NCBI GenBank assembly: GCA_016215105.1
Contig: JACRLJ010000044.1
Location: 1-35,042 of the forward strand
Reading direction: 5' to 3'
DNA length: 35,042 bases
Origin: Candidatus Hydrogenedentota bacterium
GTDB taxonomy: Bacteria > Hydrogenedentota > Hydrogenedentia > Hydrogenedentales > SLHB01
Shown: one piece after another, positions 10,995 through 28,223 of the stretch
How the letters are laid out: each line of letters starts with the position of its first letter
Position numbering within the stretch: the stretch's first letter is position 1
The notes under the pieces: model-generated
What the model saw: the letters and a program-made list of their open reading frames with translations, nothing else
Database searches by the model: none
Told to the model about the DNA's origin: nothing
Program-made: the position numbers and the translations under genes

Positions 10995-11009
10995 TACCAA
11001 GGAATGGTA
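10995..11009 (+). promoter_or_regulatory. Ribosome-binding site in a hairpin loop
   Basis: TACCA (10995-10999) and TGGTA (11005-11009) can pair, placing the Shine-Dalgarno AAGGA in and beside the five-base loop and leaving the ATG at 11010 just outside. Spacing of six bases from AAGGA makes 11010 a better start than the in-frame ATG at 11004, which would lie inside the stem with no spacing. Confidence 0.4.
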
Positions 11010-12653
11010 ATGGACACTCGAAGTCTGCTCATCCGTTTCCCGGCCTTTCCGTTCAGTTTTTGCGATCTAACACCAGATTCCGAGTTGGCTCGACTCGCCG
11101 CTTCTCTGATTGACGCCGGTCATTCGGCCGAAATTGCCGATTTTGGCACCGTCGCGGTCCTGGACCGCCTATTCCCGCATGAACACCAGGCCTCTCTCCA
11201 GTCATTACTCGATAGGGCAGATAAATCGAGTGCATGGAATCCCCTTGCGGGCTTGATTTCGGCGTGGCGAACCCACGGCGCGGCAGAATGTTACCGCTCA
11301 AAACGTGATTCTTTATGCACGGATATTGCCCGAGAGATCGCGGGCAGGCGCGATGTACGAGTGGTTGCCTTCAAGGTTGATTCCGTTGGCAATATCGATA
11401 CGGTTCATCGCATCGCCAGGGAGATCCGTTCAACAAACTCCAGGACCATTCTCGTTGGGGTGGGAAAGAACGTCGAGCTGGCCCAAAATCAGTTTCTGGG
11501 CTCATCCGGGCCCCTGGATGCGCTGCTCTTGTCCGATGCGAGTGAGGCGCTTATTGAGCTGGTTTCTCATGGCGATGGTCCGGTGGACTGGTCCGTGGCG
11601 CCGAACGCGTTGTATCGATGTAATGGCGAGATCCGGCGATCCGCGCGTACTGCTTCAGTCCAGTTCCTTGACATTTTTCCCACGCCAAATTACTCGCGGG
11701 AGGTCTATCCGACTGCGTCCAACGGAGAAAAGGCCCGCGTCTTCACGATTGAGGAGCGAAGCGGTCCGGCACGGGCCAAACCCGCCGCCGGACCATCGGG
11801 TAAGGCCGTTTCGGCGCCAGCGCGCGAACTGGTTCAACTGCACGCGCTGTACGGCGCCACGGCGTTTCATATCGATGCGGGATCGTCGTCGCACGATCAG
11901 TTGCGCGCGCTGGTGCGGGAGGTCTTGTTCCGGCGCCTGCGCCTGTCCTTCTCGATGAACGCCGCCGTCGAAAACGTGGACGCGATTGTGCTCGCGGCTT
12001 TGAAATCGTCCGGATGCCGCGCGTTAGGACTCGATACGCCTTCCGGCAGCCAGCGGCTGCTCATGGACTACTACCAGCGGCCCTTTGGTGTTACTCAGTT
12101 GGAGCAGGCGCTTCGGGCCAGTAAGGCCGCCGGTCTGTACACTGTGGCGCACCTGACCTATCCGAGCCCCCACGACGACTATCACACCGAGGCGGAGACC
12201 CTGCGGGTACTCGACCGAACCAGGCCTCATGCCGCCCCGATCCACCCTGTTGGTCCGAAACTGAGCGCTGCGTCTCGCTACGAGCCCCCTGGGGCGCGTC
12301 CCCGCAATCTCCGCCCGGAGGTCGTCTATGCGATGGGAACGGCCTGGGATTGGCTCCGTGAGACCGAACCGGTGTCCGTATCGCCTTGTGCGGCCCGGCG
12401 CACTCTGGCCGAAGCTATCGAAAAGAGGCGTATTTCCGCGCGCGTTACGGAATACACCGCGTTGCTCGCGTCCCTTGCGGGGTATTCTGGACTCGAAGAC
12501 GAGTTTTGGCGTATAGTTCAGCGTCAGTTCTTCAGCGGTGATTGCGCGGGGATCGCTACTTGGATAGGCGCCCTGAACGAAGCCGCATGTGACCCGGCGA
12601 GGGCCTGCGCTGCGGAGCCTTGGGGCCAGATTCAGTCCGCGGTCGGAAATTGA
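11010..12653 (+). CDS. Degenerate B12-binding/radical-SAM-like protein lacking the cluster cysteines
   Basis: The 547-residue protein reads like a B12-dependent radical SAM enzyme that has lost its iron-sulfur site. Residues 5-45 (LLIRFPAFPF, then ELARLAASLIDAGHSAEIADFG) and about 120-190 resemble a cobalamin-binding domain. After it, VFTIEERSGPARAKPA (from residue 244) sits where active enzymes have the SRGCPxxCxFC loop, but every expected Cys is Ala or Pro. The following half barrel is recognisable: FHIDAG, AALKSSGCRALGLDTPSGSQRLL (usually ESGS), ALRASKAAGLYTVAHLTYPSP. No CxxxCxxC occurs anywhere. It is therefore probably not a radical enzyme and may bind a ligand or partner. It is the first gene of the operon; the ketosynthase start lies 11 bp after its stop. 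Homology is inferred from motif order, not from a search. Confidence 0.6.
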   Translation: MDTRSLLIRFPAFPFSFCDLTPDSELARLAASLIDAGHSAEIADFGTVAVLDRLFPHEHQASLQSLLDRADKSSAWNPLAGLISAWRTHGAAECYRSKRDSLCTDIAREIAGRRDVRVVAFKVDSVGNIDTVHRIAREIRSTNSRTILVGVGKNVELAQNQFLGSSGPLDALLLSDASEALIELVSHGDGPVDWSVAPNALYRCNGEIRRSARTASVQFLDIFPTPNYSREVYPTASNGEKARVFTIEERSGPARAKPAAGPSGKAVSAPARELVQLHALYGATAFHIDAGSSSHDQLRALVREVLFRRLRLSFSMNAAVENVDAIVLAALKSSGCRALGLDTPSGSQRLLMDYYQRPFGVTQLEQALRASKAAGLYTVAHLTYPSPHDDYHTEAETLRVLDRTRPHAAPIHPVGPKLSAASRYEPPGARPRNLRPEVVYAMGTAWDWLRETEPVSVSPCAARRTLAEAIEKRRISARVTEYTALLASLAGYSGLEDEFWRIVQRQFFSGDCAGIATWIGALNEAACDPARACAAEPWGQIQSAVGN

Positions 12654-12664
12654 TGGGTTAGACC

Positions 12665-13909
12665 ATGTTTCATGAGTCCATAGCCATAACCGGGGTTGGC
12701 GTATTGGCCTGCAACGGACTGGGGCGCGAGGCCTATTGGGACGCGTTACGGAACGGTAGGTCGGGAATACGCCAAATCCAGCGATTTGACGCCTCGGAGT
12801 TTCCATGTCAGATCGCCGGTGAGTTGCTGGACTTCAATCCCGAAGATTTCATGCGTAAGTCCGAGGTCAAGAATTGGCACCGCCACGTTCACCAAGCGGT
12901 CGCGTCGTCGCGCTTGGCGGTGGATGACGCGTCACTCGCCAAAGCGGGGTACGACTCCGAACGCATCGCCGTCGCATTCGGCACCAGTATTGGCGCGCCC
13001 AACGAGATCTACGAAGAATCTCAACTCGCGTACCAATCCCAGGGCTGGCGCAAGATTAGCAAGCTAGCGACTTCATCCTATGCCGGGCACTCCGCTACGG
13101 TTCACGTTACCGTAAACCTTGGGATGCGCGGTCCCGCGATCACGATATCCAGCGGTTGCGCCACGGGACTCGATGTTATCGGCTGGGGAGTTCAACAGAT
13201 ACGGAGCGGACACGTCGACGCGGCGCTCGTGGGCGCTACCGAGTCCCCAGTGTATCCCTTGGCTCTGGCGGGAGCCTGTTCGTTAGGCATTGTATCCAAA
13301 CGAAACAGCGACCCCGAGGGAGCGATGCGGCCCTTCGACCGCAACAGCGACGGTTTGGTTCTCAGTGACGCGGCCGTGGCGCTGGTCTTGGAGCGCGCCG
13401 GCGCCGCGCGGGCGCGCGGAGCGCGAATTCTCGGCGAACTCGTCGGACACGGTTCCGCGGCCGAAGGAATGAATCCGCTCATCCTGGATAAGGATGGCAA
13501 GGGTCTGGCCCGCGCAATATCCACCGCCCTGACCAATTCAGGGGTGACTCCGGATTGTTTGGACAACGCCCATCCACACGGTGTGTCCCTGACCATGTAC
13601 GACCGAAGCGAAACGAACGCTTACAAGCTTGCTCTTGGCCCTAGCGCGTACCGGATTCCCATCTCGGCCACCAAGTCTCTCACGGGCCAATCCTACGCGG
13701 TCGGCGGACTGCTGGGAGTAGCTTCCGCGTTGTTTTCCCTAAATACCGGGATTGTTCCCGCTACCAAGAATCTTACCGATCCCGATCCCGCCTGCGATCT
13801 CGATTACGTGCCGCTTCATGCCCGCATGAACGACATTAACACCGCGTTGGTCACTTCAATCAGCTTTGGCGGCACCCACAGCGCCGTCGTGCTGAGGCGG
13901 ATGAACTGA
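12665..13909 (+). CDS. Beta-ketoacyl-ACP synthase-like protein (FabF fold) with altered active site
   Basis: This 414-residue protein is a full-length thiolase-fold ketosynthase of the FabF/KAS II type, starting SIAITGVGVLACNGLG. The nucleophile is present (Cys165 in SSGCATG), and a His follows in NAHPHGVSLTMYD (His303 or His305). The family's KSxTGH motif reads KSLTGQ, so Gln342 replaces the second catalytic His. In FabF both histidines help malonyl decarboxylation and condensation, so condensing activity may be reduced or changed; acyl loading on Cys165 is still possible. No acyl carrier protein, ketoreductase or acyltransferase is nearby. The TGA overlaps the start of the kinase gene (TGATG), which ties the enzyme to the signalling genes. 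Confidence 0.85.
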   Translation: MFHESIAITGVGVLACNGLGREAYWDALRNGRSGIRQIQRFDASEFPCQIAGELLDFNPEDFMRKSEVKNWHRHVHQAVASSRLAVDDASLAKAGYDSERIAVAFGTSIGAPNEIYEESQLAYQSQGWRKISKLATSSYAGHSATVHVTVNLGMRGPAITISSGCATGLDVIGWGVQQIRSGHVDAALVGATESPVYPLALAGACSLGIVSKRNSDPEGAMRPFDRNSDGLVLSDAAVALVLERAGAARARGARILGELVGHGSAAEGMNPLILDKDGKGLARAISTALTNSGVTPDCLDNAHPHGVSLTMYDRSETNAYKLALGPSAYRIPISATKSLTGQSYAVGGLLGVASALFSLNTGIVPATKNLTDPDPACDLDYVPLHARMNDINTALVTSISFGGTHSAVVLRRMN

Positions 13910-16416
13910 TGGTGACGTGGTTTCCATCGGCGTGTCTCTTATTCACCGCCGCGGCCTGCGGAACGCTTGCCGTGGTGATGGTGATTAACAACCACCGCCA
14001 GAGCACGCACTGGGCGTTCGCCGGTCTGGCGTTGAATTTTGCCGTCTGGTCGCTCACTGTCTATGGTGTTGTCAATTCGGACGACGAAGCGTCTGCCCGC
14101 TGGCACATCCAATTGACCATGGTTGCGGCGGCATTTTACCCCGCCACATTCTATCAGTTCATCGGATTCTTCCCGCGCGGCCGCTTTGATGCTTCGAAAT
14201 GGCTGCAAACCATCTACTGGCTAGCCGTGCCCGTATTCTGTGTTGGAGCTTTCATCGGCAATTGGTATGTCGCTGGCGTCCAAGTCTCGCCAAACGGCCC
14301 TCCGGTTTTTACTCGCGGTCCCTTGTTTCTTGCCTACACCGCCATCTGCGTGTCCACCATCGTCGCCATGCTGGCGAACCTGGTGTCGAAGCTCCGCATG
14401 GCAGCAGGAGTTGATCGTAGACAACTTCAACACGTTCTCCTGGGGATTTTTTCCACGGCGTTGTTGGCGTGCGGAACGAATTTACTGGCGCCGCTCATTG
14501 CTACGGAGAACAACCTCGAACCCTACGGGCCAGTATTCAGCCTGGTCATGATCGGTATCTTTGCGTACTCGATGGTTCGTTACAACCTGCTGGACCTGTG
14601 GGAACTCTACTCGCGAACCACGGTTTACGCCGTCATTACCGGCTTCGTAATTCTGACGTTCTTCGGCTCGATCTCGCTAGTACAATTCGTCTTGAGTGGC
14701 GGGGGGCAGGACGTACGGAACCCGGTCTCCATTGTCATTGCCGCCGTAGTCATTGCTACCGTGCTGCATCCGCTCAAGGAGCACATGCAGCTATTCCTGG
14801 ATCGGACCATCCTCAAGCGGCGCTACGACATCCAGAAACTGTTCTCCCGGGTCAGCGCCAATTCCGCCCACATTGTCCGGCTTGACCAGCTACTCGAAAA
14901 AGTGGCCACCGATATCGCCGACACTGTCGGCGTAACGGACGTCCGGGTGTTGCTGTTGGACAGCACCACCAAGACCAGCTTGGTTACGGAGTTCGCGACC
15001 GTTCCGCCTGAAGATGGCGCCTCGACGCCGGAACTGGGACGCGTGGTAACCTATCTTCAGGCAAGGCCTGAACCAATCGCACTCGAACATCTGGTTCGCA
15101 CCTGGTCCACTCCCGAAGAATCGGAGATTGGGCGCATTCTATCCGAGTGCGATATCTACTTGTGCATACCTCTCAAACCGATCGCCGGACTTGTCGGAAT
15201 TCTCACGCTCGGCGAGAAGGCGTCCCGAGAGATGTACTCTCAAAGTGATATCGACGTGCTCATGGCCCTTGCGGGACCTCTTGCCACAGCCATCGAAAAT
15301 GCGCGGTTGTACAGGAAGCTCGAGGAGGCGAACCTCCACCGCGGGCGCATCTTGAGCACGATGCGTGGCGGGGTCATCGCCGTCGACACGGACGGCCGCG
15401 TAACCACGATCAATCAGAGCGCCGTGGATATCCTGGGGCCCGTTACTCTTGAGCAGTCAATGGAGACCATCAATCCGGCCGTCGCGCAGCTTCTGAAGCG
15501 GGCGCTGAACGACCAGCGGCCGATTATCGATTTTGAGGCCCTGATAGTCTCAGAAGCCGGCGAGCGGATTCCGGTCACGATGTCGGCGTCATCACTGTCC
15601 GCCGCCGATGGCGCGATCACGGGCGCAATGGTGTTCATTTACGACCTGACTCAGGTGAAGCGCCTCGAACACAATGTGCAGCGCGCGGATCGCTTGTCCT
15701 CGATAGGCACACTGGCCGCGGGTATGGCGCACGAGATTAAGAACCCGCTCGTCTCGATTAAGACGTTTACCCAACTGATGTTGAATCGCTGGAATGATCC
15801 CGATTTTCGCAACACGTTTACCGAGGTTATTCCGCATGAAGTTGAACGGATCGACACCATCGTTACCCGTCTGCTCGATTTTTCCCGTCCGCGAGCGACG
15901 CAATTCGCGCCGCAAAGCATCAGCGCCGTTGTCCATAAGGTGCTGGCGCTCGTCGAAAGCCAGACTCAGCGGCGCAACGTTACCGTCGAGCTCGAGTTTC
16001 CTGAAGAGACGTTGGAAGTGTACGGTGACGAACAACAACTCCATCAGATGTTTCTGAATCTGTTTTTGAATGCGCTTGACGCACTCGACCAAACCGATGG
16101 CGGATATCTTCGCATACGCGCATACTCGGACTTTATGCACGTGCGGCGCAACGGAATGGCCCCGCTTCTGGATGTCGAATGCGTGAAAGTGGCGGTATCC
16201 GATACCGGTTGCGGTGTCGCTCCGGAACATGTAAAACATCTCTTTAATCCTTTCTATACCACGAAAGAAAACGGGTATGGGTTGGGACTCTCTGTCGTAC
16301 ATGGGATTGTGACGGAACATGGGGGCGAGGTAGACGTCTCAAGTATTCAAGGCGTCGGAACTGCGTTTACGGTTACCTTGCCGTTGGCTCGAAGTATGAC
16401 TTCAGTGGAGGATTAG
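13909..16416 (+). CDS. Membrane sensor histidine kinase (7TM-GAF-PAS-HisKA-HATPase)
   Basis: This 835-residue kinase begins with seven or eight hydrophobic segments (about residues 7-258), resembling the HisKA_7TM sensor region. A GAF domain (about 300-460), a PAS domain (about 470-590), a dimerisation/phosphoacceptor domain and an HATPase_c domain follow. The H-box is MAHEIKNPLVSIKTF with His608. The ATPase boxes are intact: NLFLNALDAL (N), SDTGCGVAP (G1), GYGLGLSVV (G2). It should autophosphorylate and donate to a receiver, either that of the next gene product or the NtrC-type regulator. Its layout recalls kinases such as PrsK, but no exosortase or PEP-CTERM genes are present. Its ATG overlaps the ketosynthase stop. 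Confidence 0.92.
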   Translation: MVTWFPSACLLFTAAACGTLAVVMVINNHRQSTHWAFAGLALNFAVWSLTVYGVVNSDDEASARWHIQLTMVAAAFYPATFYQFIGFFPRGRFDASKWLQTIYWLAVPVFCVGAFIGNWYVAGVQVSPNGPPVFTRGPLFLAYTAICVSTIVAMLANLVSKLRMAAGVDRRQLQHVLLGIFSTALLACGTNLLAPLIATENNLEPYGPVFSLVMIGIFAYSMVRYNLLDLWELYSRTTVYAVITGFVILTFFGSISLVQFVLSGGGQDVRNPVSIVIAAVVIATVLHPLKEHMQLFLDRTILKRRYDIQKLFSRVSANSAHIVRLDQLLEKVATDIADTVGVTDVRVLLLDSTTKTSLVTEFATVPPEDGASTPELGRVVTYLQARPEPIALEHLVRTWSTPEESEIGRILSECDIYLCIPLKPIAGLVGILTLGEKASREMYSQSDIDVLMALAGPLATAIENARLYRKLEEANLHRGRILSTMRGGVIAVDTDGRVTTINQSAVDILGPVTLEQSMETINPAVAQLLKRALNDQRPIIDFEALIVSEAGERIPVTMSASSLSAADGAITGAMVFIYDLTQVKRLEHNVQRADRLSSIGTLAAGMAHEIKNPLVSIKTFTQLMLNRWNDPDFRNTFTEVIPHEVERIDTIVTRLLDFSRPRATQFAPQSISAVVHKVLALVESQTQRRNVTVELEFPEETLEVYGDEQQLHQMFLNLFLNALDALDQTDGGYLRIRAYSDFMHVRRNGMAPLLDVECVKVAVSDTGCGVAPEHVKHLFNPFYTTKENGYGLGLSVVHGIVTEHGGEVDVSSIQGVGTAFTVTLPLARSMTSVED

Positions 16417-16422
16417 AATCAG

Positions 16423-18354
16423 ATGCGCGTGATCGTAGTTGTTGCCGACGACCCTGCCATTGCTGAGTCTCTGCGGGCGGCGTTACCGGAGAACGATCTT
16501 GTCTTGATCGAACCGAGCGTCGACGCCGCCCTGCGGCGTATGATTTCGATTAAGGCGGACGCCGCGATTGTTGACGATACCCCGCAATTGGGACGTCACG
16601 CGCTGAGCCGGCTGCGCGAAGCCGTACCAGCCATGCCGATCGTGATGCTTGCCAGCCGGAGCAATCCGGAGACGCTTGCGGGTTTCACGTTGGGCGGCGC
16701 CAGGGCCTGCCTTCCGAAGCCGTTCTCGTGTGAAGCGCTCCGCCAGGTCCTCTCCCAACTTAGCGCCGTTGAAATCGAACTGCCTGTGTCACGCGTGGCG
16801 GCGCCGCACCCGGTCGAATTCCTGGGGAGCAGCGGCGTTTCGGTCGGGCGTCACCAAGTGGCCCTGCGATGGCTCGGCCGCACGTCCGGCCTTATCCGCG
16901 AGCCGTTGCGGTTGAGTCAAAGCCTGGTGGATGCAGTCCTGGATATATTCGACACCGTACGCAGCGCAGTTCTCCTCGAGCAGGATGGAGTGGTTCGCGT
17001 GGCCGCGAGTCATGGCATTGCGCCTGAGGTCATCGGGTCACTGCGCCTTAGCTTCGCGTCCGGCCTCATGCGTTGGTTCGAGGGAAATCCGTGCCTGATC
17101 GACCGAGCGGCGCACCGCGCCGAATTCGACGCCATTAAAGAGATGCAATTGCTTGGAGCCCGTCTCGCCATGCCGCTGTTGAGCGGAGGCAGGGTGTGCG
17201 GCGCGATTCTCGTCGGAGACAAAGCCACCGGCGGAGAATACTCCCTGGAAGAACGCGACTTGCTTACCGTGATGGCGCGAAGCGCCTCCGTGGCGATTGA
17301 AAACGCCAAACTTTACCGGGACAGTTCGCGCCACCAGAGCCGGCTCGACGCGATACTCGCGAATATCACGGCGGGCGTCGTTACAGTCGCTCAGAACAAG
17401 ACGATCTCCATGATGAATCAAAGCGCGGAACGAATCCTTCAGATTCGCGCCGTGGATGTACTGGGGCGCAGCGTGCAGAAGCTGGGATCGGCGTTCGCCG
17501 ATATCGTGTTGCGCACCTTGACGGACGGCCAGCCGCTCCTGCGCAAAGAGATCACGGACCCTGCCATCGACGCGACGCTGGGTCTCAGCGCCACACCCTT
17601 GGGCGCCGAAGGCGTCGTGGTGATTTTCACCAAATTGGAGGAGGCGTCCGCGCCGCCCAGCGAACTCGCGTACAGTCCTTTTTGGGAGTATCTCGCGTCG
17701 CGCGTGGCCCAGGAAATCAAGAACCCCATGGTGGCCATCAATACGTTTGCCCAGTTGTTGCCCCGCAAATACGCTTCCGAGGACTTCCGGGAAACCTTCG
17801 GGACGGTGGTGCAGAAAGAGGTCACGCGGATCAATTCCGTGGTCGAGACCCTATTCGATTTTGCGCGCCAGCCCCGATTGGTGCTGCAACGCACGAATCT
17901 GAACGACACCCTCCGCAATGCCTTGCGTTCATTCGATGACGTGCTTGCGGCGCGAAACATCAAACTGAACCTCGACTGCGATCCCGCGGTCGCCGAAGCC
18001 GACCTGGACCCGGTCTTCTTTTCACAAGCCGTGCATAACGTGGTTCAAAATGCGATTGACGCCATGCCGCAGGGGGGAAATCTCACGGTTAAGACGAAAC
18101 GCGCCGCGGAAGGCAGCGAAGTCCTCATCGCGGATTCCGGCCCCGGTGTTCCGGACCAAGACGCTTCACTCATTTTCATGCCATTCTTCAGCACCAAGGA
18201 ACAAGGTATGGGATTGGGACTGACCGTCGCCAATCGCATCATGCAACAGCACGAGGGGCAGCTCAAACTGGTTGTGACACAGGAACCGGGCGGCGCCTTC
18301 GCATTATCTCTGCCCGCATCAAAGGAAGCCCATGCAAACCATACTAGCGGTTGA
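16423..18354 (+). CDS. Receiver-GAF-PAS histidine kinase homologue without the phosphoacceptor His
   Basis: The 643-residue cytoplasmic protein starts with a receiver domain (Asp9/Asp10, phosphoacceptor Asp51 or Asp52, Lys99 in LPKPF), then GAF (about 150-300), PAS (about 305-410), an HisKA-like segment and HATPase_c. The H-box equivalent reads RVAQEIKNPMVAINTF: Gln430 (codon CAG, 17710-17712) stands where kinases have His. The N, G1 and G2 boxes are intact (NVVQNAIDAM, ADSGPGVPD, GMGLGLTVA). From the HisKA segment on, it closely parallels the preceding kinase, suggesting tandem duplication and divergence. It probably cannot autophosphorylate on His, but could bind ATP, act as a phosphatase or heterodimer partner, or be regulated through its receiver. 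GGAGG lies 11 bases before the ATG; its end overlaps the next gene by 23 bp. Confidence 0.88.
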   Translation: MRVIVVVADDPAIAESLRAALPENDLVLIEPSVDAALRRMISIKADAAIVDDTPQLGRHALSRLREAVPAMPIVMLASRSNPETLAGFTLGGARACLPKPFSCEALRQVLSQLSAVEIELPVSRVAAPHPVEFLGSSGVSVGRHQVALRWLGRTSGLIREPLRLSQSLVDAVLDIFDTVRSAVLLEQDGVVRVAASHGIAPEVIGSLRLSFASGLMRWFEGNPCLIDRAAHRAEFDAIKEMQLLGARLAMPLLSGGRVCGAILVGDKATGGEYSLEERDLLTVMARSASVAIENAKLYRDSSRHQSRLDAILANITAGVVTVAQNKTISMMNQSAERILQIRAVDVLGRSVQKLGSAFADIVLRTLTDGQPLLRKEITDPAIDATLGLSATPLGAEGVVVIFTKLEEASAPPSELAYSPFWEYLASRVAQEIKNPMVAINTFAQLLPRKYASEDFRETFGTVVQKEVTRINSVVETLFDFARQPRLVLQRTNLNDTLRNALRSFDDVLAARNIKLNLDCDPAVAEADLDPVFFSQAVHNVVQNAIDAMPQGGNLTVKTKRAAEGSEVLIADSGPGVPDQDASLIFMPFFSTKEQGMGLGLTVANRIMQQHEGQLKLVVTQEPGGAFALSLPASKEAHANHTSG

Positions 18355-19729
18355 CGATGAAGCGAGCGTCTGCCAAGCGTATAGGATGATCCTTTCGGAC
18401 CGTTACAACGTCTTGCTTGCCGGCAGCGGGGCCGAGGCCTTCACCATCATCGATGACGCTCACGTAGATCTGATTCTGCTAGACCAGATCATGCCCGGCA
18501 TGACCGGGACGGACGTGCTGCGCGAATTGCGCCGCCGAAACGAGACTATGCCCGTGATTATGGTCACGGCGTCCGGCGCCGTCCCGTCCGTAGTTGAAGC
18601 CATGAAGCTTGGCGCGCGCGAGTACGTGCTGAAACCGTTCGACGTGGACGAAATCGTCTTGGTGGTCGAACGGACGCTCGCGGAACAGCGGGACAGGCAG
18701 GAACTCAACGCGCTCCGCGAAGCCGGGACCTGCGGGTTTGGCTCCATCGTCGGTGAAAGCTCGGCCGTGATGCAGACGCTCACGCTGATCCATCAGGCCG
18801 CAAAAGTAGATTCCACCGTGCTGATTACCGGCGAGAGTGGAACGGGAAAGGACCTTGCGGCTCGCGCAATTCACTCCAGCGGTAAGCGCGCGGAGGAGGC
18901 GTTTGTCGCGGTTTCCTGCTGCGCCATTCCCGAGCCTTTGGTCGAGAGCGAACTCTATGGCCACGAACGAGGGGCCTTTACCGGGGCGACCGAGCGGCGT
19001 ATCGGCAAAATGCAGGTCGCGGACCGCGGTACGCTTTTTCTCGATGAATTGGGTGAGATGCCGCTCGAAGCGCAAGCCAAACTTCTTCGCGTTCTTCAGG
19101 ATGGACGCTTCTACCCCGTCGGTAGCTCCAAAGTGATCGAGGTGGATACCCGATTCGTATGCGCCACCAACCGCAATCTGCGTGACGCTATCGCGCAGGG
19201 ACGATTTCGCGAGGACTTGTTCTACCGCATCAACGTCATTCCGATCGAAATGCCCCCGTTGCGTCAGCGGCGCGAAGACATACCGCTCTTGGTCAATCAC
19301 TTCATTGGAAAGCATGCGCCCCGCGCGAATGCTCGCACACACGCGTTTAGCCTAAAGGCGATGTCCCAGCTAGCGTCATATCATTGGCCCGGAAATATCC
19401 GGGAACTCGAAAACACTATCGAGCGGGTTCTCGTCTACCACGGCCATCACGACGTCATCGGCCCAGAGCACCTTACTGGCATCCTGCCGGGAACTTTGAC
19501 GGACGACACCAGTCAACTGACGGAATTCGAGGGGCTTTCGCTGGCGGATGCTACCGGACGCCTTGAACGCCGTCTCATTCTGCGAGCGCTGGAGCGCAGT
19601 AACCAGGTGCAGTCTCGAGCCGCGGAACTCTTGGGCACGACTCGGCGAATTCTCAAGTACAAAATGGATCAGCTGGGCATCGAGTCCGCCGCGGAAGATG
19701 CGGAGCAGCCACGATCCAATTCCGCCTGA
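18332..19729 (+). CDS. NtrC-family sigma54-dependent response regulator
   Basis: This 465-residue protein has a receiver domain (Asp8/Asp9, phospho-Asp51 in LLDQIMPGMTG, Lys in LKPF), a central AAA+ domain and a Fis-type helix-turn-helix. The AAA+ part has Walker A GESGTGKD, the sigma54-contact loop GAFTGA, Walker B TLFLDELGEM and the arginine-finger region FREDLFYRINV. The C-terminal DNA-binding helices lie around NQVQSRAAELLGTTRRILKYKM. It should activate sigma54 promoters when phosphorylated, presumably by the upstream membrane kinase. I found no convincing -24/-12 promoter (GG-N10-GC context) in the gaps of this window, so its targets probably lie elsewhere. AAGGA precedes the start by about 6 bases inside the upstream gene. 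Confidence 0.95.
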   Translation: MQTILAVDDEASVCQAYRMILSDRYNVLLAGSGAEAFTIIDDAHVDLILLDQIMPGMTGTDVLRELRRRNETMPVIMVTASGAVPSVVEAMKLGAREYVLKPFDVDEIVLVVERTLAEQRDRQELNALREAGTCGFGSIVGESSAVMQTLTLIHQAAKVDSTVLITGESGTGKDLAARAIHSSGKRAEEAFVAVSCCAIPEPLVESELYGHERGAFTGATERRIGKMQVADRGTLFLDELGEMPLEAQAKLLRVLQDGRFYPVGSSKVIEVDTRFVCATNRNLRDAIAQGRFREDLFYRINVIPIEMPPLRQRREDIPLLVNHFIGKHAPRANARTHAFSLKAMSQLASYHWPGNIRELENTIERVLVYHGHHDVIGPEHLTGILPGTLTDDTSQLTEFEGLSLADATGRLERRLILRALERSNQVQSRAAELLGTTRRILKYKMDQLGIESAAEDAEQPRSNSA

Positions 19730-19814: not shown

Positions 19815-20711
19815 ATGTCGGTAACGGTAGTTGGTTCGGTCGCATTGGATACCGTGGAAACGCCCTGGGGCCGAAACGAAGAGGGACTCGGCGGCGCCGC
19901 CACGTTCTTTTCTCTGGCGGCTGCGAATTACACTACCGTTCACTTGGTTGGTGTCGTCGGCGCGGACTTTCCCAAGCAACATATCGAGTTGCTGCAAAAG
20001 AAGAGCATCAACTTGGACGGTCTCGAGCGCGCCGCCGGCAAGACGTTTCGCTGGTCTGGCCGGTACCACGATGATGTGAACATGCGAGACACCCTGGATA
20101 CGCAATTGAACGTGTTCGAGCAATTCCACCCCAAGCTGCCCGCCGACGCGCGAAAGTCGAAGTACCTGTTTCTCGGCAACATTCACCCCGCGCTGCAATT
20201 GGAGGTGCTCGATCAGGCGGAACCCGCGTTCGTAGCGCTGGATACCATGAACCTCTGGATAAACATACAACTGGAGGAGCTCAAGAAAGTGCTTGCGCGC
20301 GTAGACGCGATCATCATCAATGATTCCGAGGTCCGGGATCTCACGGGCCACAGGAATCTAGTCAAAGGCGCCGCCGCTGTTCGCGCGCTTGGCCCCCGCG
20401 TAGTCGTCATCAAGAAAGGGGAGCACGGTTGCCTGCTCTTTCACGAGGGCGAGTTCTTTTCCGCGCCTGCCCTGCCTTTGGAAAATGTTGTCGATCCTAC
20501 GGGCGCCGGCGATACCTTTGCCGGCGGATTCATGGGGTACTTGTCGCAACAAGACGCAACCGATTTCTCGACGCTCAAGCGGGCCGTGGTGCATGGAAGC
20601 GTGGTCGCCTCGTTCACCTGCGAGAAGTTCGGTCCAGACCGGCTCATGGAAATCGGACCCGGCGACATCCGGACACGGTACGAGCAGTTCGAGCGCCTCT
20701 CAGCCTTCTAG
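19815..20711 (+). CDS. PfkB/ribokinase-family carbohydrate kinase
   Basis: The 298-residue protein opens with VTVVGSVALDTV and GLGGAATFFSLAAANY, the PfkB N-terminal glycine-rich signature. The C-terminal signature VVDPTGAGDTFAGGFMGYL contains the catalytic base Asp in GAGD. It phosphorylates a sugar or nucleoside with ATP; the precise substrate (adenosine, fructose, ribose or other) cannot be assigned. GGAGT lies upstream of the ATG. The 85-bp gap after the response regulator holds no clear terminator, so it may be the last gene of the operon, though an own promoter cannot be excluded. Confidence 0.88.
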   Translation: MSVTVVGSVALDTVETPWGRNEEGLGGAATFFSLAAANYTTVHLVGVVGADFPKQHIELLQKKSINLDGLERAAGKTFRWSGRYHDDVNMRDTLDTQLNVFEQFHPKLPADARKSKYLFLGNIHPALQLEVLDQAEPAFVALDTMNLWINIQLEELKKVLARVDAIIINDSEVRDLTGHRNLVKGAAAVRALGPRVVVIKKGEHGCLLFHEGEFFSAPALPLENVVDPTGAGDTFAGGFMGYLSQQDATDFSTLKRAVVHGSVVASFTCEKFGPDRLMEIGPGDIRTRYEQFERLSAF

Positions 20712-21644: not shown

Positions 21645-24600
21645 TTATCCGGTCACGTTGATCGTGACGTTTTGTGTTCCGCCGTTTGACGTGATTGGAA
21701 TTGTATACGTGTACGTATTGCCCACGGTCAGGCCCGTACGATCCACGGTCAACCCAATCGAGTCGGTCTCACTCGTCGTTATGCCCGATGACGGAGTCGC
21801 GGTCAGCCACGTTGGGAGCGCCGCCGCGCTAAACTGCCAGTTTAGCGTGCTCTGCCCTGAATTCGTGATAGTGAGGGTATCCGACGTGGAAACCGCCCCA
21901 AAATCGATCAAGTTCGAGCTCACCGATAGCGCCGGGTTCGTGATTTGCATCGTGATGGGGATCTGAATCGAATTCGCTATCGCAAGCGTGTTGCCGGTAT
22001 ACACGAATACGATGGTTCCCGAATAGAAACCGGGGTCGCCCGTACGATCCGCCGTCACCGTCACCGTGTCCGCGCCAACGGTTGTGTTGCGGCTGCCATC
22101 GGCCGGGTCCACAGTCACAAAGGTTGGGTTGGACTGAACTTCCCAATTCAACTGCACCGACGATGGCGTGACGCCATATGGATAGCTGCCACCGATATTC
22201 TGAACCGTCAACGCTTGCGAGTTGAGCGCCGTGCCAAACGCAATGGACGTCGGCGCAATCAGAGCCGTCGGGAACGCAGGAGCGATAGAACCGTCGGCGC
22301 CGACCGTGATCGTATCCGGGTACACGAAGTACTTCGGTTCTGGGTCGGCGGAGTAAATCGTATTGTCGACCGTCAGGGCAACAGTGAACGGAGTCACGCC
22401 GACCGCCGGGAAAGTCAACGTGAGCAGATTGCCGAAGGCGCCGTACTGGAGCACGTCGGTTGGAGCCGGCGCGGTCAGCGTGTAGACCCCGCCGCCGAGG
22501 GGCGTCAGCGTCCAGCCGTCAGTCGCTCCGCCGTCCGCCGCAGTGACCAGGGCCGGAGGATCGAACGCCTCGGCGCTGGTCAACGTGAATCGGAATTTGT
22601 TCACATTACGCGGCGCATAGTCGAGCCGCAGCGTGACGGTCGCCGCGCCTCCGGCGACACCGGAGCTGCGCATCGAAATCTGTCCCATCTTCACATCGCC
22701 GGCGATCTCGCTTAACTTGAGGTCTTGAGCGAAGGTGCCCTGAAGAAGGCCCTCATCCGGACTGTCATTCGGATCGTTAACCTGCGCGTTCACGCGGGCC
22801 GGAACTCGTTCCGTTTCGTTCAGCGTCACGTACGTCAAGACCATCTGAGACGACAAGTCGCTGAGGATCGTCTGGAGTTTTTGATCCAGTTCCGCCACTG
22901 TCGGGTCGCCGTTCGCATCGCCGCGTGTCGCATAGTAGTGACCACCCGAACTTACCGCCAAACGGGCCAAGGGCTCGTTGTTCACATCCTTGCCCCAGCC
23001 GATCGAGAATATCCGCATCCGATTCGCGACGGCGAGATCCACCGTATCCTGCATGATTCCCGGCGGCGTCGTGAGACGTCCGTCCGAGACCATCACCAGC
23101 GCCCGTACGTCCGCGTTGTCAAATGAGAGAAGCTGCGCATCGACATCCCGCAACCGGCCCGCCGCGTCATCGACCGCCGGAAGAATTGGAGACGCCCCGT
23201 GATCCGAAATCCTGATATCGTGCAGAGCCGTCTTGAGCGCGGTCTTGTCTTCCGTGAAATCGCGCACCAAACGCGTCGCCTGGCTGCGATCATGGAATTC
23301 CATCAACGCGACGCGGTATTGCGCCGGAATGCCATCAATAAAATCGGACACGGTCTGTTCGTACGCCGCATGCAGTTGGTCCGTTCCAAGAAGTCCAAGG
23401 CCCTGCGCCGCGTCATACACGCTTCCCGAGAAGTCCAGCATGATCACCATATTGGTCCGCAGGTTCGCGCCCGACGTGACGAACTGATTCGTTTCCGTCG
23501 TCTCCAGCGAAACGCCGTTTTCGATGATCGGGAACGAATTCGCCAAATCCGCCGGCGTCGCGAACATGGCGCGATTGCGGAAATGCCTCATGATGAACGC
23601 GAATTGCACCAACGAAGGAATCCGCGTCCGCGCGTTGGCCAGCTCGAACGACAGCGGAGCAGCTTCCACCGAGACGAGCACCTGCTTTGGCGCTATGTCG
23701 GTAATGACAGCGCCCGTCCCATCCACCGCTTGGATGGTGAAGGTGCCCGTTGAGCCGCGGCTTTCCAGGCTCCCCCGATCAACGGAGACGCTAATCGTGC
23801 GATAGTCCTTGAATGGCGGCGGGCTGGCCACGCCAATGCTGTTGCCGGTAGATGGGCTATTGAACAGCCACACCTTGTCACTGCTCACGGTGAAGTTGAG
23901 TATCGTGCCCGGATCGCCATAGTTCGCGACGCCGAAGCTGCCTACACTGGCCAGCAAACCGAAGTCCAGTTCATCCGCATCGGTTCCAATCGAGGCGCGC
24001 AACGGCACCACCATGCTCACTTCAATTATCGCGTTGCCGCCGTTCGATGTAACCGGAACGTCCTGTTTGTACGCGCCAACCGCAAGGTCCGTGCGGTCAA
24101 CCGTAACAGTTACGGTGTCTGTCTGAGTGGTAAGTGAACCGGCCACCGGAGCCATGGCGAGCCACGAGGGGAACTCGGCGGGGTCAATATTCCAGTCCAG
24201 CGAGCCCGTTCCGGTATTACGAATGGTGAATGTCAGCGTAGTGTCCCGGTCGCCAAGCGGCACGAGCGGGCGCTCGTCGGCCGACACCTGGCCGGTTTCT
24301 ATTGTCAGGACCGGGGTCACTGCGACAGTCATCGTGACGGAGACCGTAGCGCTCCCGACGTTCGGTGAAGACGTAACGGAAAGGTCATGGGTGTAATTCC
24401 CAGGAGCCAGGCCAGTGCGGTTCGCGCTGACAAGCACTCCGTGCGCCGTCGTTGTAATGCTTCCGCTCGTCGGCGCCGCCACGCTCAGCCAGGCCGGAAG
24501 ACCGGCGGTATTGACGGTCCAATTCACCGTACCCGTGCCCGCGTTGGCAATCGTGAACAGCTTGTTGGTGGCGAATGATCCAAAATTCAGTGTCAAAGGC

Positions 24601-25583
24601 GAAACCACCATTTGGGTCGCCGCTACGGACGCCGTGACGTTTACCGTGGCGGCCCCGCCATTCGAGGTGATCGAAAGCGTTCCCGCAAGCGGACCAGCGC
24701 CCAGTCCCGTTCGATCCACGGTCACGGTGATCGTGGCCGGTGTGGTGGTCGTCGCCCCTGTCGCCGATGAAACGCTTAACCAGGACAAGCTCTCGGTCAG
24801 TGTCCAATTCAGCGTCCCGGTTCCGGTGTTGCTAATAGTGAAGGTAGACGTCGTCGTTTGCGCGCCGAAGTCCAATGACAAAGGCGCCACCGACAATATC
24901 GGTATCGCCCCGGCGACGGTCACGGTCACGGCGATGGTGGCGTTTCCGCCGTCGGATGTGATGGTAATAGTGGCGGTGGGGGATCCCGATAGCGTGCTTC
25001 GGTCTATCGTCGCGGTAATCGCATCCGTCTCGCTGGTCGTAGTGCCGGACGTCGCGTTGAGTGTGAGCCAGGTCTGGTCGCTGGCCGCCGTCCAATTCAA
25101 CGTTCCCGTACCCGTATTCCGAATCGTGAATCCGCGATCCAAATCCGTGGATCCAAAATCGAGGCTGCTCGGATTCACCGACAATACCGGAGTGGGGGGG
25201 CCAACCACGGTGACGCTCACCGCCACGTTCTGGTTTCCGCCATTCGATGTAATCACGACCTGGCCGCTATGTATACCTGCGGTGAGCCCGGTCCGGTCAA
25301 TGGTCATTGTTACCGCTTGAAGGGCGTTATGCGCCAAACTCCCGCTCAGCGGCGCCGCGGTTAGCCAGGAAGGGCTTGAGGTGATGGTCCAGTTAAGCGT
25401 CCCGCCACCCGTATTTGAAATATTGAACACATCTGTTTCCGGCCCCGGGAGGGACGGGGGAAGAAAATTGAAGGCCAGGTTCGAGACCGACATCTGCGGT
25501 GGAAATGTGCTGGGACAGCCCACAGCCCAAATCAGCGCGCACAGAAGTCCGTATTGAATGAGGCGAGGTGATACGCGTGGCAT
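21645..25583 (-). CDS. Large BACON-repeat / von Willebrand A lipoprotein
   Basis: The 1312-residue protein has a lipobox at AVGCPS near residue 23, so it is probably lipid-anchored outside the cytoplasm. About six BACON-type beta-sandwich repeats of roughly 95 residues follow (to about residue 620). Each has an LDFG-like start, a NTGTGTLNWT strand, a WL pair, a TVDRTGL segment and a SNGG end. A von Willebrand A domain comes next, with an intact MIDAS Asp717-x-Ser-x-Ser in LDFSGS. A beta-rich segment and two more BACON repeats reach the C-terminus. BACON modules are thought to bind glycans or mucins; vWA domains bind protein ligands through a metal ion. AAGGAG lies 6 bases before the ATG, within the end of the upstream gene, two bases away, showing translational coupling. 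Confidence 0.88.
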   Translation of the reverse strand: MPRVSPRLIQYGLLCALIWAVGCPSTFPPQMSVSNLAFNFLPPSLPGPETDVFNISNTGGGTLNWTITSSPSWLTAAPLSGSLAHNALQAVTMTIDRTGLTAGIHSGQVVITSNGGNQNVAVSVTVVGPPTPVLSVNPSSLDFGSTDLDRGFTIRNTGTGTLNWTAASDQTWLTLNATSGTTTSETDAITATIDRSTLSGSPTATITITSDGGNATIAVTVTVAGAIPILSVAPLSLDFGAQTTTSTFTISNTGTGTLNWTLTESLSWLSVSSATGATTTTPATITVTVDRTGLGAGPLAGTLSITSNGGAATVNVTASVAATQMVVSPLTLNFGSFATNKLFTIANAGTGTVNWTVNTAGLPAWLSVAAPTSGSITTTAHGVLVSANRTGLAPGNYTHDLSVTSSPNVGSATVSVTMTVAVTPVLTIETGQVSADERPLVPLGDRDTTLTFTIRNTGTGSLDWNIDPAEFPSWLAMAPVAGSLTTQTDTVTVTVDRTDLAVGAYKQDVPVTSNGGNAIIEVSMVVPLRASIGTDADELDFGLLASVGSFGVANYGDPGTILNFTVSSDKVWLFNSPSTGNSIGVASPPPFKDYRTISVSVDRGSLESRGSTGTFTIQAVDGTGAVITDIAPKQVLVSVEAAPLSFELANARTRIPSLVQFAFIMRHFRNRAMFATPADLANSFPIIENGVSLETTETNQFVTSGANLRTNMVIMLDFSGSVYDAAQGLGLLGTDQLHAAYEQTVSDFIDGIPAQYRVALMEFHDRSQATRLVRDFTEDKTALKTALHDIRISDHGASPILPAVDDAAGRLRDVDAQLLSFDNADVRALVMVSDGRLTTPPGIMQDTVDLAVANRMRIFSIGWGKDVNNEPLARLAVSSGGHYYATRGDANGDPTVAELDQKLQTILSDLSSQMVLTYVTLNETERVPARVNAQVNDPNDSPDEGLLQGTFAQDLKLSEIAGDVKMGQISMRSSGVAGGAATVTLRLDYAPRNVNKFRFTLTSAEAFDPPALVTAADGGATDGWTLTPLGGGVYTLTAPAPTDVLQYGAFGNLLTLTFPAVGVTPFTVALTVDNTIYSADPEPKYFVYPDTITVGADGSIAPAFPTALIAPTSIAFGTALNSQALTVQNIGGSYPYGVTPSSVQLNWEVQSNPTFVTVDPADGSRNTTVGADTVTVTADRTGDPGFYSGTIVFVYTGNTLAIANSIQIPITMQITNPALSVSSNLIDFGAVSTSDTLTITNSGQSTLNWQFSAAALPTWLTATPSSGITTSETDSIGLTVDRTGLTVGNTYTYTIPITSNGGTQNVTINVTG

Positions 25584-25585
25584 GG

Positions 25586-28120
25586 CTACTCCTTCACCTT
25601 GTAGGACACGCCGGGCGCTCTCGAACCGGACGCGTCTTTCGATACTAGGGGGTTGTCCGGCGCGGCGTCGTCAAAATCCGCTGTGCCGTCCGCATCACGG
25701 TCAAACGCGCCGGTCGCGTCCGGGTTAAACCCGTCGGCCAGCGCGATGGGTGTCACACTTGCCGCGCTGGACCCCGTGCCAACCGTGATGAGGTCGGGGT
25801 ACTGGAAGAACTTCGTGTTGGGCGGATTCACCAGAACGCGGTTATCCACGCGGAATCCAAGATCGAAATCTGCCGCGGCGCCCGTGAACGTCAGCTTCAG
25901 CATGTCGCCGAACGAACCGTAACGGAGATAATTGGTGTCGGTAGTCAGCACGGTGTATACACCGCCGCCTTCTGGAACCAAGGTCCATCCGGCGAGAAGC
26001 CCGTCCGCCAAGACCTCGACCGTCGGCGTAATCGCCGATATGAACCGGAGCCGGAATTGCGTCACATTGCGCGGCACATACTCCGCGCGAACGAATACTT
26101 CCGCGCTGCCGCTTTGAATGCCGGCGGTGCGCAACGAGATTTGGCCGGCGCGCACATCGCCGCCGACGGTAAATACCGAGTCGCGCTCAAATGAACCCTG
26201 AAGCCCGTTGTAGATCGCCTCGATTAGATAGTTGTGGGAACCGTCTTGAAAGAGCGTGATATACGTTAGCGATACTTGACGCGCCAAATCGGAGGTAAGC
26301 AGGCCGGGTGCCGTTGCGGCCGCGCCGGTCTCATTGTCCAGCAGGCCCATCAAGGCAGACGAGTTGGCCGCGACATAGTAGTGGCCGCCGCTGTCCGCCG
26401 CCAGCTTAACCAGCGGGGCTGTGTTGACCAGGTCACCAAAGCCGATCGGATACAGGCGCACACGGGAATCCTTCGCGATGGTGCTGAGCTGCTCCGTTGT
26501 GTTCACCGATGAGGTGTCACGTCCGTCGGTAATATATACGACCGCGCGCACGTCCGCGTCGTCAAACGGCAGGGCCGTCGCATCCTCATTGACCAGCCGC
26601 GTGCAGGCGTCCGCAACCGCATCGTTGACTTCCGACGCGCCATGATCGCCGACCGGAAGCGAGAACGCGTCCAGCGCGTCCAATAGCGGTTGTTTGGCCG
26701 TCGAGAACCCGTGGATCAGCCGGTTGGTCTGTTGCCGTTCGTGATATTCCATTAACGCGATTCGGTACGTTCCGGGAAGGTCAGTGATCAAGCTCCGCGC
26801 CCCGGCCACCATCTGCTCGATGGCCACCCCGGCGCCCGTCTCGGCGGCGTACATACTGCCGGTAAAATCGAGCAGCAGAACGATGTTGTACTTCAGATTC
26901 TGGGGGCCGGTAACGAACACGTTGCTTTCACCCGGATCGAGGAAAACTCCGTCCTCTCTGACCGTGAACGCCGTTTGCAGCTGCTGCAAGATCAGCGGGT
27001 CGGTGCTGTCAATGGACCGGCCGGTCCCGTCCCGCATCAGGAAAACAAACCGCTGAATGAACGGCGGCCGCGAACGGTTAATCGCGCCTTCAAAGCGCAA
27101 GGGCGCCGACTTTGCCGTCACCGCGACGCTTACAGAGTCGATGCCGTCGGCGGAAACCGTGATGGTCCCGCCATCCTCCGAGCCTGACAGCATGTTGCGA
27201 TCGATGGTTACCGTGATCGGGACATTGTTCTTGTCAGTAGTGCTGGTGCCCAAGCTCGTCCCCGACGCCGGATTCATGAATATGAGATCCGTCCTGTCGG
27301 TCGTCAAGGTAAAGTTGAGTGTTGTGCCGCTCGGGCCGTTATTGAACACGTTGAAGGTCAATTCACTCTGGTCTTCGCCAAAGTCCAGGACGTTCGGATC
27401 GACGCCAATTACGGGACTCGTTCCCACGCCGATATTGATACCGACCGGAACCGTTCCGCCATTCGATACGACATTCAACGTGAAATTGATGATCCCCGTG
27501 GGCAGGTCCGTGCGATCTATGGTGATTGTAACCGTGGTCGTGGCGCCCGGCGCCGTGACACCGCCCAACGGCGAGACCGTCATGTAACTGGGGATGGGAA
27601 TCGTCGCGGACGCGTCCGAAGGATCTTGCAGGGAAAGGCTCCAGTTCAACGGACCGGTGCCCGTGTTTCGAACCGTAAACGTACCCGTCGTGGTTGTCCC
27701 GAGAAGGTTCACCGTCTGAGGACTTACGTCCACTACCGGAGTGCCCGGAACCGACACCGAAACCCGAACTTCCCTTGATTCGCCCACGTTCGGTGTGATC
27801 GTTATCGTACCCCAATAACTTTCGCCCGGCGCGAGACCAGTGCGATCTACTGTCAAGTGGACCCGCTGCACCCGATTGCTTACCGAGCCGCTGGTGATGT
27901 CCGCCGTTAGCCAACTGATCGATTCCGACAGAGTCCAGGTCAGCGTCCCGGAGCCATCGTTCCCAACGGTGAAACTCTCATCAACTCCATCGGTCCCGAA
28001 GTTCAGGGCAGTGGGATTTAGTATCAACTGTGGGCCAAGAGCCGATGGACACCCTGTCAGGGCGATTCCGGCCATGCCAAGTAACAGCCAACACACGGGG
28101 GGCCGAAAAATTCGCATCAT
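25586..28120 (-). CDS. BACON-repeat / von Willebrand A lipoprotein with calcium-binding tail
   Basis: This 844-residue paralogue of the next gene down has a lipobox ALTGCPS, about three BACON-type repeats (starts LNFG, VNLL and LDFG), then a vWA domain with MIDAS Asp418 in LLDFTGSM. A beta segment ends in FQYPDLITVG, closely matching VYPDTITVG in the partner. Unlike the partner, its tail carries an Asp-rich motif, FDRDADGTADFDDAAPDNP, typical of thrombospondin type 3-like calcium-binding repeats. Met at 28120 is preferred because GAGG lies 6 bases upstream; the reading from GTG at 28138 is less supported. The two proteins are probably co-expressed and may form a surface complex. Confidence 0.87.
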   Translation of the reverse strand: MMRIFRPPVCWLLLGMAGIALTGCPSALGPQLILNPTALNFGTDGVDESFTVGNDGSGTLTWTLSESISWLTADITSGSVSNRVQRVHLTVDRTGLAPGESYWGTITITPNVGESREVRVSVSVPGTPVVDVSPQTVNLLGTTTTGTFTVRNTGTGPLNWSLSLQDPSDASATIPIPSYMTVSPLGGVTAPGATTTVTITIDRTDLPTGIINFTLNVVSNGGTVPVGINIGVGTSPVIGVDPNVLDFGEDQSELTFNVFNNGPSGTTLNFTLTTDRTDLIFMNPASGTSLGTSTTDKNNVPITVTIDRNMLSGSEDGGTITVSADGIDSVSVAVTAKSAPLRFEGAINRSRPPFIQRFVFLMRDGTGRSIDSTDPLILQQLQTAFTVREDGVFLDPGESNVFVTGPQNLKYNIVLLLDFTGSMYAAETGAGVAIEQMVAGARSLITDLPGTYRIALMEYHERQQTNRLIHGFSTAKQPLLDALDAFSLPVGDHGASEVNDAVADACTRLVNEDATALPFDDADVRAVVYITDGRDTSSVNTTEQLSTIAKDSRVRLYPIGFGDLVNTAPLVKLAADSGGHYYVAANSSALMGLLDNETGAAATAPGLLTSDLARQVSLTYITLFQDGSHNYLIEAIYNGLQGSFERDSVFTVGGDVRAGQISLRTAGIQSGSAEVFVRAEYVPRNVTQFRLRFISAITPTVEVLADGLLAGWTLVPEGGGVYTVLTTDTNYLRYGSFGDMLKLTFTGAAADFDLGFRVDNRVLVNPPNTKFFQYPDLITVGTGSSAASVTPIALADGFNPDATGAFDRDADGTADFDDAAPDNPLVSKDASGSRAPGVSYKVKE

Positions 28121-28223
28121 GTCGCACCTCATTAACACGCGCTTATGTCAAGTACACAGCGGACACTGTGGCGCGTTCCACTGCCGGGAGTGTGGCTCCG
28201 AATCGGCCAAGGCTTCGGTGTGA

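Follow-up and report, generated by a model that had tools for sequence, protein, structure and literature searches.

The window, meaning the whole 35,042-nucleotide stretch of Candidatus Hydrogenedentota DNA analyzed here, carries on its forward strand a gene (11010–12653) for a radical-SAM-like protein of 547 amino acids that lacks the cluster cysteines. The open reading frame is intact, with 549 codons counted from a further in-frame ATG at 11004 and 547 from the ATG at 11010, and alignment places the latter in line with the starts of the orthologues. The name RSL is given here to the Hydrogenedentota orthologue family of this protein. The cluster is what defines a radical SAM enzyme; the superfamily is recognized by a CX3CX2C motif, or a spacing variant of it, that binds a [4Fe-4S] cluster in the β1–α1 loop, and by reductive cleavage of SAM to a 5′-deoxyadenosyl radical. 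The window protein has no such motif in this loop; RSL is therefore described as radical-SAM-like and not as a radical SAM enzyme.

Gene neighborhood of RSL

Directly 3′ of RSL lies a FabF-like ketosynthase gene (12665–13909, forward strand) in which the triad cysteine is encoded at 13157–13159 and the first histidine at 13577–13579, while the second histidine is replaced by glutamine (13688–13690). The triad was placed using an E. coli FabF row as reference. Cys-His-Gln was found in all 23 aligned orthologues across the phylum, instead of the Cys-His-His expected of a FabF (KAS II) enzyme; the genome also has two further FabF-like genes, in which the Cys-His-His triad is retained. The following genes, also on the forward strand, encode a 7TM-GAF-PAS histidine kinase (HK1, 13909–16416) with an intact phospho-accepting histidine (15730–15732), a REC-GAF-PAS-HisKA-HATPase protein (HK2, 16423–18354), and an NtrC/AtoC-type sigma-54 response regulator (18332–19729) with an intact phospho-accepting aspartate (18482–18484). 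In HK2, the phospho-accepting histidine is replaced by glutamine (17710–17712) with the ATP-binding boxes intact, and the same substitution (RVAQEIKNP), again with the ATP-binding boxes kept, was present in 21 of 21 alignable orthologues. A sugar-kinase-like (PfkB-like) gene at 19815–20711 on the same strand was named by eye from its translation and not from a profile match.

The ketosynthase gene is found directly 3′ of RSL in 36 genomes, with 52–69% identity to the copy in the window, and in most cases where the contig continues it is followed by the 7TM-GAF-PAS histidine kinase, the REC-GAF-PAS-HisKA protein, and the NtrC-type regulator. Orthologues with and without the cluster cysteines occupy the same operon position. 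Relatives of the sugar-kinase-like gene are located near RSL in 12 of 40 neighborhoods, coming after the NtrC-type regulator in about a dozen, and the sugar transporter and O-methyltransferase genes upstream of RSL are not syntenic in relatives. A search for a sigma-54 promoter upstream of RSL found none, the matches in the window being no more frequent than expected by chance. In two families (f6 and f10), RSL is present without a ketosynthase orthologue or an operon of this kind; since RSL is kept there without these partners, its core activity must be its own. Further along the window, on the reverse strand, two large adjacent genes (21645–25583 and 25586–28138) encode proteins with BACON_2, HYDIN-type Ig, and VWA domains.

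Fold, cluster loop, and conserved residues of the RSL protein

The AlphaFold2 model of the window protein, obtained with 26 family members, had a pLDDT of 80.7 and a pTM of 0.83. Foldseek comparison of this model with the PDB returned TsrM as the first match (E 9e-14, probability 1.00), followed by AprD4, MgmA, OxsB, TokK, and CysS, and the model of an orthologue that carries the cysteines returned these enzymes again, with stronger scores (TsrM, 8.5e-19). On the basis of the model, the window protein is predicted to have the cobalamin-dependent radical SAM fold, including a partial or full TIM-barrel SAM domain; the structure prediction suggested as a check in the initial annotation thus came out on the side of this fold (TsrM, E 9e-14), and an unrelated fold was ruled out by the Foldseek matches.

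Searches at the sequence level gave fainter signals. The Pfam radical SAM profile PF04055 did not match the window protein, although it matched 9 of 26 orthologues at E 0.01, and a search of the PDB with the window protein alone gave no match; NCBIfam ApyD matched it at 8e-6 in a single-sequence search. TokK, CysS, AprD4, and TsrM were also found by sequence when the RSL family profile was used. A weak PF02310 (B12-binding) match at residues 104–182 (E 0.0065), together with the paralogue alignment and the model, delimits a putative N-terminal Rossmann-type, B12-binding-like domain of approximately residues 1–210 (11010–11639); the Pfam B12-binding profile matched only 6 of 26 RSL members at E 0.01. 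In the paralogue alignment, this domain keeps P11, P22, G37, D44, and G152 and lacks PLG and GGxH; because these two signatures are lost, B12 binding by RSL is not to be assumed.

The degenerate cluster loop was assigned to residues 244–263 (11739–11798) from alignments and the AlphaFold model. Residues 244–259 (11739–11786) read exactly VFTIEERSGPARAKPA. When a 46-sequence family profile was compared with TokK, the segment 'eesrgaaevghad' was set on 'ETNRGCPYSCSFCD' of the TokK cluster loop; an alignment of RSL together with 13 canonical radical SAM paralogues from this phylum gave the same register, with the cluster cysteine columns falling on P253, K257, and A260; and eight RSL orthologues carry CX3CX2C at exactly this position. 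By these three lines of evidence, the window loop occupies the alignment position of the cluster loop. In the model, it lies between β1 (245–248) and the helix formed by residues 268–281, as in radical SAM enzymes, with residues 253–262 disordered (pLDDT < 50). No Cys, His, or acidic residue is present at the cluster positions. The nine cysteines of the protein (18, 94, 103, 204, 336, 460, 512, 527, and 533) were searched for a CxxxCxxC-like group, and none was found. The initial annotation had read the loop from residue 244 as one in which all cluster cysteines are replaced, with no CxxxCxxC elsewhere and with AGH, SGS, AGL, and PSP segments at family spacing; the three-way register and the cysteine positions bear this out, all four segments were found at the family positions, and the homologue alignment it called for, including the eight CX3CX2C sequences, sets the cluster loop precisely there.

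A family-specific motif, P385-S-P-H-D389-D390-Y-H392-T-E-A-E396, is encoded at 12162–12197. Its general form, P-x3-[DE]-D-x-H-x3-E, was present in all 57 complete orthologues and also in two additional members that are highly divergent, and P385, D390, H392, and E396 were 100% conserved in the 48 rows without and the 8 rows with the cluster cysteines; at these four positions, the 13 canonical paralogues show mostly G, T, E, and a mixture of residues. The model shows the motif directly after barrel strand 377–383, at the start of helix 391–404. The segment GSQRLL (residues 346–351, 12045–12062) retains the GSQ that B12 radical SAM enzymes have in their ESGSQ region, and in the model GSQ346–348 directly follows strand 336–342. 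Judged from secondary structure, not from distances, both elements would therefore be located at the barrel mouth on the C-terminal side, which in radical SAM enzymes is the site of SAM and the cluster. The protein ends in AVGN (12639–12650), found exactly in 25 of 60 orthologues and as AVAN, VVGN, or AAGN in many others; in most RSL members such a tail is kept up to the last residue, as if functional.

Other hallmarks are missing. The aromatic residue of CX3CX-φ-C was present in 13 of 13 paralogues versus 0 of 8 cysteine-bearing and 1 of 48 cysteine-less RSL proteins, and neither RSL class retains, from the features of the paralogues, the β2 Asp pair, the ESGSQ glutamate, or the B12-domain signatures PLG and GGxH. 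Because the cysteine-bearing members also lack these radical SAM and B12 signatures, the alignments suggest that specialization away from standard radical and B12 chemistry probably preceded the loss of the cysteines in most lineages.

Distribution, cysteine state, and selection in the RSL family

Of 60 kin genomes, 57 contained a matching orthologue or weaker relative, and profile matches were obtained in 66 of 68 Hydrogenedentota genomes. A handful of the latter, G008, G012, G022, and G060 among them, were matched by canonical paralogues only, and once such matches are removed approximately 60 true RSL carriers remain; in some non-carriers (G001 and G008) the contig stops where the gene would sit. 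A profile match was obtained in each of the 38 genomes with completeness of 90% or more and contamination of 5% or less, and the weakest two of these (G044 and G051) keep both the motif and the C-terminus. The orthologues are spread over 11 families of the phylum. The window protein itself is at most 36% identical over its full length to any orthologue, and it carries the features by which RSL is recognized: P-x3-[DE]-D-x-H-x3-E, GSQ, an A-V-[GA]-N-like C-terminal tail, and a match to profile A1.

A search of species genomes with the single sequence gave no match. GTDB release 220 (one genome per species, 84,980 species) was scanned with two short motifs; the patterns came from a closer 9-row alignment, since the 46 rows of the larger one varied too much for this purpose. 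The scan returned 27 loci, comprising 26 RSL loci and one canonical paralogue in a Woesearchaeota bin. The 26 RSL loci are titled Hydrogenedentota, Hydrogenedentes, Hydrogenedens, or 'uncultured bacterium', and in one case as a 'Rhodothermaeota' bin. As scanned with these two motifs, RSL looks phylum-restricted. The 'Rhodothermaeota' bin (L127, VFKU01000140.1) has a Hydrogenedentota RSL locus, the same as that of G049 from that phylum, and is probably mislabeled.

Sixty orthologues were aligned, 56 of them usable for the cysteine columns, and cysteines were counted on columns because the CX3CX2C pattern overlooks CX4CX2C paralogues. CX3CX2C is kept in eight of the 56, each from the same GTDB family as the window; the three cysteines are absent in 48, a recurrence that makes their absence more than a matter of chance. 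In the cysteine-less rows, the three columns hold a cysteine in 2/48, 2/48, and 1/48 cases. These loops range from near-motif forms (SRGSDHLPHATP, SRGCHHVTHQQP) to short or missing ones (L024, L036, L045, L046, L050, L109, and L141). On this alignment, most members of a family spread across the phylum have lost the cysteines, and the window protein is not alone in this. A maximum-likelihood tree built without the loop columns implied four changes of cysteine state within the family, and a single cysteine-bearing clade was not rejected (p-AU 0.27). Given the superfamily and a cysteine-bearing outgroup, the direction of change would be loss and not gain.

Two smaller features of the loop were observed. 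About 12 cysteine-less loops (e.g., L002, L007, L017, and L027) keep a histidine one position past the second cysteine column. The eight cysteine-bearing proteins (L008–L015) have CX3CX2C with no Phe at the φ position before the last cysteine, where 13 of 13 paralogues have it; the position is mostly small (G/A/S) or D, with His in L011 and L012. The cluster chemistry of these members, to go by their loops, may also be unusual. The idea that another RSL copy in this genome, one with the cluster, does the work was considered and rejected, as G000 has one strong match and the other is an ordinary radical SAM paralogue.

Selection was estimated as dN/dS by the Nei-Gojobori method on orthologue pairs. 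Cysteine-less pairs gave 0.087 (L002/L003), 0.109 (L004/L005), 0.105 (L044/L047), and, for three further pairs, 0.131, 0.164, and 0.158; a seventh pair, at 46% identity and near saturation, gave 0.328, and three more pairs were saturated. Cysteine-bearing pairs gave 0.085 (L011/L012, the closest pair) and 0.138. Loop identity was often slightly below that of the rest of the protein in both classes alike. RSL is under purifying selection. The initial annotation had argued from the open frame that the protein is still selected rather than decaying, and values of 0.087–0.164 in six of the seven finite cysteine-less pairs, against 0.085 in the cysteine-bearing pair, agree with it.

Proposed function and comparison with known systems

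The cysteines were lost, yet the protein was kept in nearly every sequenced member of the Hydrogenedentota, which suggests that a B12-radical-SAM scaffold has been reused for a job that needs no radical chemistry. We put at roughly 0.6 the probability that RSL is a cluster-free, repurposed protein of the B12-radical-SAM fold that has its own pocket and works without reductive cleavage of SAM. RSL would have descended from cobalamin-dependent radical SAM enzymes and then been repurposed to work without the [4Fe-4S] cluster, so that reductive SAM cleavage would not be possible. The barrel pocket, lined by GSQ and D390/H392/E396, would bind a small molecule, on which polar chemistry is probably performed. 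In most lineages, RSL would act together with the adjacent Cys-His-Gln ketosynthase, a putatively non-elongating, acyl-accepting partner, and the two may be under, or feed, the neighboring two-component sigma-54 system or phosphorelay. The case for a polar enzymatic role consists of the invariant Asp, His, and Glu, residues for which a structural part or the binding of a regulatory ligand is just as conceivable. A further step, which we hold to be less likely than not, is that a phylum-wide cluster-free catalyst with a new Asp-Asp-His-Glu site, in an operon whose ketosynthase and second kinase likewise have rebuilt active sites, constitutes with them a new sensing or biosynthetic module.

RSL might instead be a pure pseudoenzyme that performs no chemistry and serves as a ligand sensor, a scaffold, or a partner that regulates the ketosynthase and/or the sensor kinases in a DivL-like manner. 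The non-canonical sites of its neighbors, fixed across the phylum in the ketosynthase (23/23) and HK2 (21/21) beside an intact kinase and an NtrC regulator, fit such a role, and DivL shows that a kinase can be turned into a sensor (PMC4211667). Although this reading deserves serious attention, we consider it doubtful, because f6 and f10 keep RSL outside the operon and because Asp, His, and Glu that stay invariant at ~25–35% overall identity are more typical of a working site. It is improbable that RSL still performs radical SAM chemistry with a cluster whose ligands are other residues or come from a partner protein: GSQ, the CX3CX2C of eight orthologues, and the His next to the second cysteine column in about 12 loops speak for it, but the window loop offers no ligand at the cluster positions, several lineages have a short or missing loop, and the cysteine columns are almost empty (2/48, 2/48, and 1/48).

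A similarly low probability is assigned to retention of cobalamin and/or SAM for non-radical methyl transfer in the manner of TsrM, carried out cluster-free. The top structural match, TsrM, is a nonradical Cbl-dependent methylase (PMC8992657), and GSQ is kept; TsrM itself, however, retains its CX3CX2C cluster (PMC8992657), PLG and GGxH are lost in RSL, B12-binding profile matches are limited to 6/26 members, and a search of RSL for an axial or SAM-binding acidic residue yielded no identifiable candidate. Fast divergence, with no orthologue above 36% identity to the window protein, could hint at a decaying pseudogene or an artefact of assembly or frame, a reading with next to no probability: full-length frames in dozens of independent assemblies, dN/dS of ~0.09–0.16 in most pairs, and the conserved operon refute it. 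The cluster-free, repurposed protein remains our preferred reading. Its orthologues with and without cysteines in the same operon position form a natural series in which to ask what the scaffold can do once the cluster is gone, and the operon combines three proteins whose active sites are non-canonical and fixed, in a phylum of which the biology is little explored.

Literature searches, which covered few subscription papers, returned nothing relevant on Cys-less or pseudo-radical-SAM proteins, on radical SAM proteins of Hydrogenedentes, or on Cys-His-Gln ketosynthases. We know of no other phylum-conserved clade that has shed the cluster yet kept the radical SAM fold under purifying selection. 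Among the neighbors of RSL, HK2 can be likened, from sequence alone, to DivL-type kinases, which are also conserved two-component proteins with the phospho-accepting histidine replaced. DivL has Tyr in place of this histidine; HK2 has Gln rather than Tyr and a different domain set.

In its predicted structure, RSL shares a two-domain fold with TsrM (6WTE), AprD4 (6FD2), MgmA (9CCB), OxsB (5UL3), TokK (7KDX), and CysS (9N1B), the common elements with cobalamin-dependent radical SAM enzymes being a Rossmann B12-like domain, a SAM barrel, and a helical C-terminal part. TsrM, a nonradical methylase that uses cobalamin and SAM and keeps CX3CX2C, is both the best structural match and the closest known example of this fold carrying out polar chemistry (PMC8992657); unlike TsrM, the RSL of the window has no cluster ligands and no B12 sequence signatures. 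The canonical paralogues of the same phylum (L147–L159, e.g., G000:C53, which is L155) are homologous over the barrel with the same loop register, but 13 of 13 have the three cysteines and the φ aromatic and none of the 13 has the DDxH-E motif. Compared with cobalamin-dependent radical SAM enzymes in general, RSL shares the GSQ region and profile similarity to TokK, CysS, AprD4, and TsrM, and has lost CX3CX2C (in 48 of 56), PLG, GGxH, the φ aromatic, the ESGSQ glutamate, and the Asp pair of β2, whereas P-x3-D-D-x-H-x3-E is invariant in RSL and new with respect to these enzymes.
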